Source of the DNA: Frankiaceae bacterium
Lineage (GTDB): Bacteria > Actinomycetota > Actinomycetes > JAVEEB01
Assembly (NCBI GenBank): GCA_030840665.1
Contig: JAVEEB010000477.1
Coordinates: 1 to 10,088, forward strand
Direction of reading: 5' to 3'
DNA length: 10,088 nucleotides
The notes below the pieces were generated by a model. The model did no database searches. It had not been told where the DNA came from and saw only the letters and a list, made by a program, of their open reading frames with translations. The stretch's first letter is position 1; every line of letters starts with the position of its first letter. A program made the position numbers and the translations under genes. This document shows positions 3,031-6,880 of the stretch, piece by piece.

Positions 3031-4362
3031 TCAGCTCAGGCTGTGCGAGACGACGTCGGCGAGGGCGGCCACGACCCGCGGGTCGTACTCGTACGCCATC
3101 CCCAGGCGCAGCCTCTCGAGGGCGTCGCCGTGGCCGCGGATGTTGCCACCCGCCTCGCTGACGAGGTCGTCGTACGCGCTGACGGCTTTGATGATCCGGC
3201 TGCCGAGCGGCACCGTCTCATCGGAATCCCGGCGATTGCGGCGGTACGGCTCGGCCTGGCGTTCGACGAGGACCGCGACCCGGTCCAGGAAGCCGGTGCT
3301 CCGGATGATGTCGGCGCCGAGGCCCGCGACCCGCGTGCGGTGCTGCGCCGTCACCGTGAGCGTGCTGCCGGGCGGCATCGGGTCGTCCAGGGAGAGCTGG
3401 CCGACGTCGTGCAGCAGCGCTGCGTACTCGAGGTCGACCAAGTCGTCCTCGCTCATCCCGAGGCGCCGACCGGTCGCGACGGCGAGTTTCGTGACACGTT
3501 CCGCATGACCTTGTACGACGTACCCGCCGACCTCCGTGATGCGGGAAAGGGCCCGGATCGTCTGGCCGTAGGTGGCGCGGATCTTCGCGTAGCGCCGGTA
3601 AGCGAATTGCGTCACGAGCAGGGGTAGCGACAGCGCCGGCAACGCCCAGAGCTCCATGCGGTTGGCCGCCAGCGGGATCAGGACCCCAGTGGCGGCAATG
3701 GCGGCGCCGAGACCGAGTGACAGACGCAGTTCGGACGTGACCGCGGCCACGAACGGCACCCGCAGGCGCCATCGGCGGTCGAACGCCGCAAGCACGACAT
3801 CGGTCAGCCCCGCCGCGGCAACGACAACCACCATCACCGACAGAATGGTCAGTTGTGGTGATGGGAGCGACAGATCACGTCGTACGACGGGAAAAAGGGC
3901 GGCAGCGAGCGCAACGATCAAGACTCGACGGGCGATCGTGTCCAAACGCAGGGTCCGGCCGACAGCCGCATGAATCATCCCGCCTGCCAGGCTCGCGGCA
4001 GCGGTCACTGAAATCGTCACGTACGCGCCATGCGGGACCGTCGTGGCCGGCGACAAGGACGTCAGACCGACGGAGTCTGTGAGCGCGTACGCGAGCGCCC
4101 CTGCCGTGGCCAGGGGGGACGCTTCGCGGTCGCCGGGCAATGCCACCCTGGCCAGCTCGCCGACGAAGATCAACGCAGCAAAAGCCAACGCAACGACAAC
4201 GGTTTCCCGGCTGAGTGGGTGCAGCATCGCTTCCGGGGCGGCGACAAGGGTCAGTGCCCCCGCAGCGAGAATCAACGGGTGTGCCAGGAGCAATTGCCAT
4301 AGGGCGATGGGCAACGGTGCCGCGCGACGCGCGGGCGTGGCCGCAGAACGCACTTGTGTCAT
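3031..4362 (-). CDS. Membrane HD-domain protein with degenerate HD-GYP site
   Basis: A 443-residue protein with a mostly hydrophobic N-terminal half (about 7-8 candidate membrane segments between residues 18 and 253) and a C-terminal HD domain (about 260-440). The HD core is partly kept: GHAERVTKLA with His286 and LLHDVGQ with His318-Asp319. The rest of the HD-GYP signature is lost. The lysine of HDxGK is Gln322; the HHExxDGxGYP motif is replaced by a stretch containing VERQAEPYRR; and the late VAD/DAFDAM motif is VSAYDD. A full di- or tri-iron phosphodiesterase site is therefore unlikely, so the protein is probably a sensor or regulatory partner. Its ATG overlaps the stop of the intact HD-GYP gene (ATGA, 4359-4362), so the two are translationally coupled and probably co-function. 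The ligand is unknown. An alternative is that it cleaves another nucleotide as a plain HD hydrolase. Confidence 0.85.
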   Translation of the reverse strand: MTQVRSAATPARRAAPLPIALWQLLLAHPLILAAGALTLVAAPEAMLHPLSRETVVVALAFAALIFVGELARVALPGDREASPLATAGALAYALTDSVGLTSLSPATTVPHGAYVTISVTAAASLAGGMIHAAVGRTLRLDTIARRVLIVALAAALFPVVRRDLSLPSPQLTILSVMVVVVAAAGLTDVVLAAFDRRWRLRVPFVAAVTSELRLSLGLGAAIAATGVLIPLAANRMELWALPALSLPLLVTQFAYRRYAKIRATYGQTIRALSRITEVGGYVVQGHAERVTKLAVATGRRLGMSEDDLVDLEYAALLHDVGQLSLDDPMPPGSTLTVTAQHRTRVAGLGADIIRSTGFLDRVAVLVERQAEPYRRNRRDSDETVPLGSRIIKAVSAYDDLVSEAGGNIRGHGDALERLRLGMAYEYDPRVVAALADVVSHSLS

Positions 4363-5675
4363 GCGCGCGCGGAAGGCTGAGGGAGGAGCAGGGGCTCGCT
4401 CATCGAGTCACCGGCCTCCGCCGGCCGGAACGGCTCGGGGTCGCCTTCCCAGCCCACCCTGGCGACCGCCCCGACAAGTGCGGCGACCATCGCAGGGTCG
4501 AACTGGACGCCCTCACACCGGCGCAGCTCGGCTACTGCCTTCTCCACCGACCGCGCTGGACGGTACGAACGCGTCGACGTCATGGCGTCGAATGCGTCGG
4601 CGACCATGATGATGCGGGCGATCTCGGGGATCTCGAGGCCGACGAGCCCAAGGGGATAGCCGGCCCCGTCCATCCGCTCGTGGTGGTGAAAAACGCCGGC
4701 GAGCGAGTCGGTCAGGAATTCGATCCCTTCCAGCATTTCCAGACCGCGGGCCGGGTGCGTCTTGATGACGTCGAACTCTTCGTCGGTCAGCTTGCCGTGT
4801 TTGCCCAGAATCCGACTCGGGATGCCCGTCTTCCCCACGTCGTGCAGCAGGGCGCCATAACGGACGGCGTCGACACGAAACTCGGGCAAGTGGGCCTCGT
4901 GAGCGATCATCGTCGCTATGCGCGACACGCGTTCTGAGTGCCCGCGCGTGTAGCCGTCCTTCACCTCAATCGCCGCGATCAGCGCGCGCAGCGTTGCGTC
5001 ATAGGCCTTTTCCTGCTCGGCATACTGGCGCAACGCCCACCGCGCGCTCAGGAACGGGAGAAGCAACAGCACGGCAGCCACGGGCGTATAGCTCAGCCAC
5101 AACACTGCCAACATCAGGCCCAACGCGCCGTACGCGACGTACGACAGGCTCGACGAGGCGACTGCTCGCAATACCGATGTCGGACGCAGCCCTTCCACCA
5201 TGGCGACCACGCCGGCGGTGAGAGCGACATTGATGATCGACTCGACGAGGACGGTCGCCATGACCACCCAGACCGTCCGAGGGAACGCATTCGACCCGAA
5301 TGAGTGGACGGGCCCACCAAGCTGTTCGTACAACAAGCCGGCTGTGCCGCCCGCCAGGGCGAGTTGTCCGAAATTGAAGGCGCGTTTGACGAGTGCTGGT
5401 GACTCACTGCTGTAGGCAAGTGCGGCCGACGCACAAACCAGCGTCGCGCCGGCGGCACCCACAAGCGTGAAAGAAGCCACCGCGACGACGAGCCCCAATG
5501 ACAAGTCGACCCAGCGCACTTTGGCCGACGAGAGCGAATCGCACGTGACCATGAGCCCGCACAGAAGTGCAACGGTCGGCCAATACGTGACATGGGCACC
5601 GGCAAAGGCGCATGCAGCCATACCGGCGACGGTGACCGTGCCGATGTAGATGCGGGCGCGCGCTGGCAGGCGCAT
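4359..5675 (-). CDS. Membrane HD-GYP protein, probable cyclic-di-GMP phosphodiesterase
   Basis: A 438-residue protein with about 6-7 candidate membrane segments (about 8-205), a short linker, and a complete HD-GYP domain (about 225-400). HD-GYP enzymes hydrolyse c-di-GMP to pGpG/GMP. Visible: GYTRGHSERV with His246; LLHDVGKTGIP with His278-Asp279 and Lys282; KTHP with His307; HHERMDGAGYP (331-341), the signature motif; and VADAFDAMTSTRSYR (358-372). Every ligand I can place is intact, unlike its downstream neighbour. The N-terminal membrane part is not a family I recognise; it may sense a membrane or external signal. The start at 5675 is preferred because GAGGA lies 8 bases upstream. A longer frame from TTG at 5732 is open but has no good binding site and begins directly after the stop of the small ORF. 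It overlaps the next gene by four bases (ATGA). Confidence 0.9.
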   Translation of the reverse strand: MRLPARARIYIGTVTVAGMAACAFAGAHVTYWPTVALLCGLMVTCDSLSSAKVRWVDLSLGLVVAVASFTLVGAAGATLVCASAALAYSSESPALVKRAFNFGQLALAGGTAGLLYEQLGGPVHSFGSNAFPRTVWVVMATVLVESIINVALTAGVVAMVEGLRPTSVLRAVASSSLSYVAYGALGLMLAVLWLSYTPVAAVLLLLPFLSARWALRQYAEQEKAYDATLRALIAAIEVKDGYTRGHSERVSRIATMIAHEAHLPEFRVDAVRYGALLHDVGKTGIPSRILGKHGKLTDEEFDVIKTHPARGLEMLEGIEFLTDSLAGVFHHHERMDGAGYPLGLVGLEIPEIARIIMVADAFDAMTSTRSYRPARSVEKAVAELRRCEGVQFDPAMVAALVGAVARVGWEGDPEPFRPAEAGDSMSEPLLLPQPSARA

Positions 5676-5732
5676 GGGGCAATTCCTCGGGGGAAGAGGA
5701 GTCGAGATGGCGAGGCCGAGACCGGCACGCAA

Positions 5733-5810
5733 TTAGACCCACTTGGTAAAGGGTGCGCCCTTGGTGAGGCTCTCTACCGCGTGCTCGATGGCCGTGAAAA
5801 TCTTCTTCAT
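5733..5810 (-). CDS. Small ORF, 25-residue peptide upstream of the HD-GYP pair
   Basis: An ATG-initiated frame of 25 codons plus TAA, preceded by AAAGGAG ten bases upstream, the strongest binding site in this neighbourhood. The peptide begins MKKIFTAIEHAV and ends PFTKWV. Residues 2-17 form an amphipathic helix with I4, F5, I8, V12 and L15 on one face and Lys/Glu/His on the other; a Gly-Ala-Pro turn and an aromatic, basic tail follow. It is in the same frame as the HD-GYP gene: TAA (5735-5733) is followed at once by an open stretch to the HD-GYP ATG 57 bases on. No homologue is recalled. Possible roles are a secreted or membrane-associated signal peptide for the membrane HD proteins, a small protein subunit, or a translated leader. 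Real expression is inferred from the binding site and position only. Confidence 0.55.
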   Translation of the reverse strand: MKKIFTAIEHAVESLTKGAPFTKWV

Positions 5811-5945
5811 CGAGGACCAACTCCTTTGCAAATGAAGTCACGGGGATCCGCTGAAATCCCGTGCAGCATCCGCTCCGCTGTGGAGTGCGGTTCTACTTGC
5901 TCGATGAGGGTCGTGCGTTCGTACCGGCCTCGGTCTCGCCATCTG

Positions 5946-6041
5946 CAGTTGTCAAATCGTCAGTGATGCCAAAGGCAAACCCTGCTCAACCGGCAGACGC
6001 GAACGTCTTCCCCCGTGCCGGCACGCATGCCGTGGCAACTG
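5946..6041 (+). other. Possible structured RNA element in the divergent region
   Basis: CAGTTGTCA (5946-5954) can pair with TGGCAACTG (6033-6041) over nine bases, including one G-U pair in a plus-strand RNA; the same pair is an A-C mismatch in a minus-strand RNA, so the plus strand folds better. Inside are TGCC-AAA-GGCA (5967-5977), AGACG-CGAA-CGTCT (5995-6008) and the palindrome CGTGCCGGCACG (6014-6025). If real it would lie in the leader of the gene at 6245, about 200 bases upstream. No known class is matched with confidence. Confidence 0.25.
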
Positions 6042-6200
6042 GGCCAGTGAATAGGCTTGATAACGATCACGTCAAGGCACTCGTCGTTAATTCTGGGAGA
6101 TCGGACAAAAACGGACTCCTGCAACAGGGATAACACGGACGAACCGGACACCGGCGCAGCGATTGGCTCCGGTCGGGCGCGCCGACTATCTGAGGAGCGC

Positions 6201-6228
6201 GTGGCGCCCTAGTCTGATGGCGCGCCAC
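6201..6228. repeat. Inverted repeat over the probable promoter of the 6245 gene
   Basis: GTGGCGC (6201-6207) and GCGCCAC (6222-6228) form a perfect 7-bp inverted repeat with a 14-bp centre that includes the candidate -10 TAGTCT (6210-6215). It ends 16 bases before the start codon. Its position suits a repressor site or a leader hairpin; no binding protein can be named. Confidence 0.3.
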
Positions 6229-6244
6229 GAGAGGACCAGACCAG

Positions 6245-6880
6245 ATGACGACATTGCGCCTACGACCCGAGCTGGAAGAAGCGCTGCGTCGCATTCCTGG
6301 CGTCCGCGCGGCGAGCGTCGTCACCATGCACGACGCGACGCCCACTGAGATCCACATCCTGGCCGACAGGGCAAAGCAGCCGAAGCAGCTCGTTCGCGAC
6401 ATCCAGTCGCTCGCCCTGGCCAGCTACGACATCGACCTCGACCACCGGATCGTCAGCGTCGTGCAGCTGGACGACGAGGACGTCGCCGTCGACCCCAATG
6501 GTGAGATCACGATCCGTCCCCTCGTCGCTTCCGTCATGACGCAGACGGCCGGCTCCGACGCCACCGTGAGCGTCACCATTCGCACCGGTGCCGACGACTA
6601 CGTGGGCACGGCGTCCGGCGCCGCCTCGGGCGGGGTGCGGGCGCGCCTGGTGGCACGGGCGACCCTCGACGCCCTCCGCGAGTTGCTGGGCACACCCGCC
6701 GAGATCGAGCACGCCTCGCTGGTGCCCCTCGGTGGCCGCACGATCGCGGTCAGCGTGGTCCACCTGACGACACGGCAGGGCGAACTGGTGCTCTCCGGCA
6801 GCGCCGTCGTACGCAATGACGACGCGGATGCCATCGCGCGGTCCGTCCTGGATGCCGTCAACCGGCGCCTGGCCGGATGA
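6245..6880 (+). CDS. Conserved-looking protein of unknown function, two alpha/beta domains
   Basis: A 211-residue soluble protein with no signal peptide or membrane segment. Its coding character is clear: a good length, typical high-GC codon use and no competing frame. The N-terminal part (about 8-75) reads as helix-strand-strand-helix-strand, with IPGVRAASVVTMHD, TEIHILADRAKQPKQLVRDIQSLAL and IDLDHRIVSVVQL, which suggests a ferredoxin-like fold. The C-terminal part (about 105-210) has strands VSVTIRTGADDYVGTASG, a helix RARLVARATLDALRELLG, two more strands and a final helix, somewhat like small regulatory ligand-binding domains such as that at the end of LeuA; this is inference. AGAGGA nine bases upstream supports the ATG. 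It is divergent from the HD-GYP operon and convergent with rsrA. No function is assigned. Confidence 0.85.
   Translation: MTTLRLRPELEEALRRIPGVRAASVVTMHDATPTEIHILADRAKQPKQLVRDIQSLALASYDIDLDHRIVSVVQLDDEDVAVDPNGEITIRPLVASVMTQTAGSDATVSVTIRTGADDYVGTASGAASGGVRARLVARATLDALRELLGTPAEIEHASLVPLGGRTIAVSVVHLTTRQGELVLSGSAVVRNDDADAIARSVLDAVNRRLAG

Follow-up and report, generated by a model that had tools for sequence, protein, structure and literature searches.

The locus

The window analysed here is the entire contig JAVEEB010000477.1 (10,088 nucleotides) of a Frankiaceae bacterium, from an assembly that is 78% complete and divided into 503 contigs. Its minus strand carries a small open reading frame (ORF) of 25 codons plus TAA, with the ribosome-binding site AAAGGAG 10 nt 5′ of its ATG, followed by the gene of an HD-GYP phosphodiesterase, an enzyme of cyclic di-GMP (c-di-GMP) turnover, and by a second HD-domain gene (Table 1). 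The start of the ORF belongs to a structured RNA core, and the ORF as a whole lies within the loop of a long stem. The preliminary description of this region, made from its letters alone, had placed the small ORF correctly in coordinates, strand, frame and stop, and was also right that an AAAGGAG site precedes it and that an HD-GYP gene and an HD-domain gene follow, the second of which matches its domain family less strongly.

Table 1. Positions of the small ORF, the RNA features and the neighbouring genes in the window
Feature	Positions	Strand	Description and basis
Small ORF	5733..5810	-	25 aa (amino acids), MKKIFTAIEHAVESLTKGAPFTKWV; frame, conservation in relatives, pN/pS
RNA core, covariance-model match R1	5802..5881	-	AGCGGAGCGGA (5869-5879) through small-ORF start; own-genome match at E 3.5e-14, from a model with the window sequence among its 13 training sequences
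Hairpin	5837..5864	-	GCACGGG...AGCGG...CCCCGTGAC; 97.1% of cells paired; 4/8 pairs changed on both sides
Long stem, 5′ arm	5920..5945	-	helix search, pair tally
Long stem, 3′ arm	5704..5729	-	begins 3 bases past small-ORF stop; helix search, pair tally
HD-GYP phosphodiesterase gene	4359..5675	-	ATG at 5675, 438 aa; PF13487 E 4.3e-37; S-component-like predicted membrane domain
Second HD-domain gene	3031..4362	-	start overlaps HD-GYP stop; PF13487 E 2.1e-10, PF01966 E 1.3e-5
Promoter-like bipartite element	6046..6075	-	TTGACG-N18-TTCACT; motif scan of elements

The product of the downstream gene has the HD, HHExxDGxGYP and related catalytic residues of HD-GYP phosphodiesterases and is, judged by its sequence, a canonical HD-GYP protein. 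Its predicted membrane domain resembles the S-components of energy-coupling factor (ECF) transporters. The amphipathic helix claimed for the small peptide is confirmed: residues 2–16 have a hydrophobic moment of 0.56 against a shuffle mean of 0.23, a value equalled in 0.2% of 5000 shuffles. The aromatic basic tail (PFTKWV) stood in part, in that a Trp near the stop is conserved among relatives while the basic residues are not the conserved part.

Conservation of the small ORF

The relatives sampled for the window share only the class with the source genome. An HD-GYP match at E ≤ 0.001 was found in 26 of 40 genomes searched (own included), and upstream of most of the 19 best matches stands a short Trp-tailed ORF that conforms to the pattern MKKI..AVE..L or is a variant thereof. 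In a class sample of 393 genomes, 121 have an HD-GYP orthologue at E ≤ 1e-60. A mechanical rule (a frame of 8–45 aa with ribosome-site-like purines and a Trp within the last four residues, at most 480 nt upstream) was applied to 99 upstream regions, from 98 of these 121 genomes and from genome G419. It is satisfied at 74 of the 80 loci outside family f18 and at one of the 19 within it. Most of the relatives examined that have retained the HD-GYP gene have retained the frame too, f18 being the exception, so that the refuting condition named in the preliminary description, loss of the frame in such relatives, was answered in favour of the gene outside f18. On the reverse strand the rule finds six of the 80 loci outside f18 (10 of 99 overall), and dinucleotide shuffles expect 20.1 of 99. 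The rule also erred at some loci: one f33 locus (L179) was scored through a wrong frame, another (L161) was overlooked, and so were L116 and L119, where the small ORF is plainly present.

Substitutions within families are biased toward synonymous ones, the pooled ratio of nonsynonymous to synonymous change (pN/pS) being 0.46 in frame and rising to 0.87 and 1.25 when the frame is shifted. This figure draws on 29 of 44 collected ORFs that fall in compared family groups (f40 has no equal-length pair), most changes come from f38, and the pairs are not independent. Among 28 representative peptides Trp is the sole invariant column, each of the 28 having one Trp or more close to its end, and Glu9 and Trp are invariant across 27 rows of the amphipathic type; both sets were picked by hand, and the 53-aa forms of f33 are in neither.

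A profile of the amphipathic form, which is too narrow to reach the f5, f11 and f16 forms, gives 40 strong matches in 38 of the 393 genomes (E 5.4e-5 or better; 4.1e-5 for the window's ORF in its own genome). By their coordinates all 40 lie at the small-ORF locus or at a second copy beside the RNA. Of 14 weak matches (E 7e-4 to 0.05), 12 fall in frames of at least 99 aa and two in short frames (G387, G392).

The small ORF is, on this comparative evidence, a real, coding and conserved gene that precedes orthologous HD-GYP genes. That it should be a chance frame, with the RNA alone, or nothing, of consequence, is very improbable. The source assembly is incomplete and fragmented and short frames are common, but frame, stop and Trp are conserved across many families with controls, the ORF is present where the RNA core is not, and the loci are syntenic. 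We reject this explanation on the grounds of pN/pS, the controls of the mechanical rule, the occurrence of the ORF beyond the RNA core, and synteny.

A structured RNA encloses the ORF

The sequence AGCGGAGCGGA stands directly 5′ of the small ORF in 13 of 19 loci, window included. Between it and the start codon lies the hairpin, with AGCG in its loop. At E ≤ 0.01 the covariance model of the core finds 42 of the 393 class genomes, 41 of them at 1e-6 or better and a doubtful one at 0.006. An HD-GYP orthologue is also present in 39 of the 41 RNA-bearing genomes; the two exceptions (G008, G082) have the RNA at the edge of a contig. Scanning named species genomes for the pattern returned 41 stretches: 28 with the small ORF, one (L075) cut off before the ORF, and 12 apparent chance occurrences, of which the 11 examined have no HD-GYP. 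HD-GYP sequence follows in 25 of the 28 ORF-bearing stretches, and the other three end within 190 bases. The 29 real stretches all carry labels of actinobacteria or of uncultured bacteria. Two loci (L067, L077) come from metagenome-assembled genomes labelled Bifidobacterium breve, a doubtful label; they carry a 13-aa form of the peptide otherwise found in genomes of 1.2–1.7 Mb.

The second part of the RNA is a 26-bp stem. Its two arms stand on either side of the small ORF, which falls within the loop in all 33 distinct elements. Searched without gaps over 26 bases and with G-U counted as half, the best helix scores 18.5 of 26 in one element and 22.5–25 in the other 32; at two loci (L046, L073) the arms were out of reach of the first search, which gave low scores, and a wider one located them. 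Controls were needed because the helix search optimises. In local scores, cognate arms average 65.5, non-cognate arms 43.9 and shuffled arms 34.3 (maximum 53.2). For the pair tally the 33 rows were reduced to 32 by leaving out L043 and to 27 by merging identical rows. In these, 90.6% of cells are paired, versus 75.3% in shuffled and at most 44.4% in slid alignments, and 21 of the 26 pairs have changed on both sides, versus 12.8 in shuffles. In f38 the 3′ arm starts farther away than in the window, 18–90 nt past the small-ORF stop.

A mobile inverted repeat is rejected as the source of these arms: 41 of 42 genomes have a single match (two in G042), and the matches are syntenic. Moreover, pairs 1–12 and 15–22 contain 25 G-U but 5 A-C cells, the imbalance that an RNA made from this strand should show. 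The stem might also be a processing stalk like those that surround rRNAs. Cleavage by RNase III would then liberate hairpin and ORF together, as a small RNA or a mini-mRNA, and the HD-GYP mRNA would retain only a short stretch at its 5′ end. A helix of 26 bp that in many rows is broken nowhere but around pairs 13–14, at its middle, would suit such a stalk, and its base is 15–35 nt ahead of the HD-GYP start in many elements; lineages that have no stem nevertheless retain the ORF. We consider processing distinctly unlikely, and it would be compatible with either a regulatory leader or a functional peptide.

Forms of the peptide

Among relatives the peptide ranges from 9 to 53 aa. Besides the amphipathic form (20–25 aa) there are membrane-like peptides of 25–28 aa (MKKIAAVIGGLVALFVAGGAGAGWH; MFVSMFSAMMAAVLVASTFTGWSWW), a form of 34–35 aa with C-terminal PGVSWT or PGISWT, and short forms of 16 aa (f16; MLKETVGPVHPGISWT), 13 aa (MFKMLLEPGVSWR) and 10 aa (MQINSNWKWA). 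The 13-aa form belongs to the small genomes (1.2–1.7 Mb) of family f5. Forms that end in ...GWSWW have three Trp, and the window ORF and the 13-aa form have one Trp codon each. The Trp tail is retained in lineages without the RNA core. In f30, f40 and f33, W-x-W lies 2–9 residues ahead of the stop. The 53-aa peptide of f33 (L185 and L186, upstream of HD-GYP) contains two tandem RGWxWxG units (RGWGWGG or RGWEWRG) and in sequence resembles a multi-core precursor. By eye, the HD-GYP gene of f33 also has an apparent -10 element of its own at its start codon.

At L002, L003 and L104 a 9-aa ORF (MREENWKWG) stands behind a 21-aa ORF, making two Trp-tailed ORFs in tandem. Genome G042 has two copies of the element (contigs C33 and C61), and one variant ends in GWGGH, with the usual second Trp lost; the two copies could reflect a mixture of strains.

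The peptide itself may be functional, a possibility that we regard as serious though not the likeliest. In this case a W-x-W micropeptide, exported or at the membrane surface, would bind the S-component-like domain or the HD partner and set c-di-GMP turnover, and the RNA would govern only its dose. Purifying selection in frame, the amphipathic helix, the invariant Glu9 and Trp of the amphipathic rows, the Trp tail that persists without the RNA core and the repeats of f33 all fit such a product. The forms of 9–16 aa, which have no amphipathic helix, do not, and neither does f18, which has the HD-GYP gene and no small ORF. No export or modification genes were recognised among the window genes, to which that search was confined, and S-components are known for small-molecule ligands. 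The f33 repeats, the possible f33 HD-GYP promoter and the Trp tail without the RNA core nevertheless keep the case for a peptide acting in trans strong. In a more specific form of this idea, which we think rather improbable, the S-component-like domain would be a sensor joined to the c-di-GMP phosphodiesterase, and the W-x-W micropeptides would be a family of ligands that bind it directly; the structured RNA in which each peptide is encoded would control the dose by means of its stalk.

Promoter-like element and neighbouring genes

The motif TTGACN-N17/18-TTCACT occurs in 20 of 33 elements, 77–238 nt ahead of the 5′ arm of the stem, where mononucleotide shuffles expect 0.0. Its second box, TTCACT, differs from the usual TANNNT, and the motif is missing from the f38 elements examined. 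At L011, L185 and L186 the gene of a small basic protein resembling ribosomal protein bL37 sits between rsrA and the element, divergent from the small ORF.

Relation to known RNA and leader systems

No Rfam 15 family reaches its gathering score in positions 5650-6260 of the window, where the sole match is psaA (13.7 bits versus 50). Eleven further loci gave only IRES_Bip (20.8 bits versus 40), at L013 and inside the HD-GYP coding region. Like c-di-GMP riboswitches, the element puts RNA structure ahead of the gene of a c-di-GMP enzyme. In scans of 12 sources none of their models gave a match up to E 1, and identity with a known riboswitch is rejected on these scans; a new class of RNA that binds c-di-GMP would be compatible with this absence. 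A literature search, whose coverage left out most subscription papers, found nothing on the peptide or the RNA among the titles and abstract openings listed.

Attenuators of the trp type likewise have a short ORF, rich in one amino acid (Trp), ahead of an operon and beside an RNA structure (on leader peptides, see PMC2965389). The window ORF and the 13-aa form differ in having one Trp codon only, and the genes downstream here are HD-GYP, HD2 and others, not those of Trp biosynthesis. Attenuators also have a terminator and antiterminator pair; a scan of the locus for promoters and terminators was uninformative, giving a single terminator-like site (5981-5997), upstream of the small ORF, with about 0.5 expected. 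Some f16 loci have a GC-rich hairpin past the stop, without a T run. Termination-arrest leaders such as TnaC (PMC8429421) are similar in having a short leader ORF with key residues near its end, ahead of the regulated genes. They differ in that the distance from the Trp tail to the stop varies here, that sequence and downstream genes are unrelated, and that arrest is, for the present ORF, a hypothesis. The Downstream-peptide motif (PMC2864571) likewise combines RNA structure with a short conserved ORF, the structure being in the 5′ region, but belongs to another group, has another sequence, and does not have the arrangement seen here, with the ORF within the closing stem.

A candidate cis-regulatory leader

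We favour, with about even confidence, the interpretation that the HD-GYP operon has a new cis-regulatory 5′ leader with the small ORF as its leader cistron, and that translating this ORF through its Trp tail would gate the operon. Comparison among relatives establishes the coding ORF, the structured RNA and their tight linkage to HD-GYP; from these we infer regulation. A leader is favoured because the ORF lies inside the RNA structure, because it can be very short, and because in five f16 loci with the 16-aa form the HD-GYP ribosome site is, by eye, covered by a hairpin that begins just past the small-ORF stop. The preliminary description had pictured the peptide as a signal sensed by the linked membrane domains or as a small subunit. 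That picture changes with the embedding of the ORF in a conserved structured RNA, as is often found for regulatory leader ORFs, and with the short forms, since at 10, 13 or 16 aa they could hardly be ordinary proteins. The leader interpretation is supported as well by the covarying pairs (21 of 26 in the stem, 4 of 8 in the hairpin), by the place of the ORF in the stem loop of every distinct element, by the HD-GYP orthologue in 39 of 41 RNA-bearing genomes and by the invariant Trp at or close to the last codon.

In such a leader the AGCGG-type hairpin would bind some protein or ligand and thereby set how often the leader is translated. Ribosomes might slow at the Trp-x-stop end, through the supply of Trp-tRNA or through arrest by the nascent chain, and there compete with the RNA structure that starts soon past the stop codon. 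This competition would set the expression of the c-di-GMP phosphodiesterase, and the peptide would then be chiefly a device read by the ribosome.

Several observations weigh against a leader of this kind. The covariation tests show neither an alternative structure nor a terminator. Additional pair types in the short hairpin are at chance level (124 of 500 shuffles), and a hairpin over the small-ORF ribosome site is weakly supported (at least half paired in 26 of 33 elements, mean z -0.64). In the first stem search the own partner scored best in only 45% of rows, because relatives share arms. The 3′ arm of f38 is too far past the stop for a ribosome at the stop codon to melt it, and the variable position of W-x-W in f30, f40 and f33 does not fit a fixed arrest point. 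The apparent -10 element of f33 would uncouple the HD-GYP gene from the leader. Finally, three f16 loci (L138, L143, L152) seem to be without a small ORF, and f18 shows that the HD-GYP enzyme can do without this element, an exception to its conservation.

The element is kept even in f5, with its peptide of only 13 residues and genomes of 1.2–1.7 Mb, which indicates a selected function. The locus would tie the translation of a tiny Trp-tailed ORF to a c-di-GMP enzyme, and it carries a structured RNA for which no Rfam family reached its cut-off. If the ORF is a leader, it would give actinobacteria a route to tune c-di-GMP through translation. If the peptide is the active product, a second-messenger enzyme would have a new ligand, a peptide, and a micropeptide that is the direct ligand of the sensor would make the system a peptide-to-c-di-GMP switch in actinobacteria.
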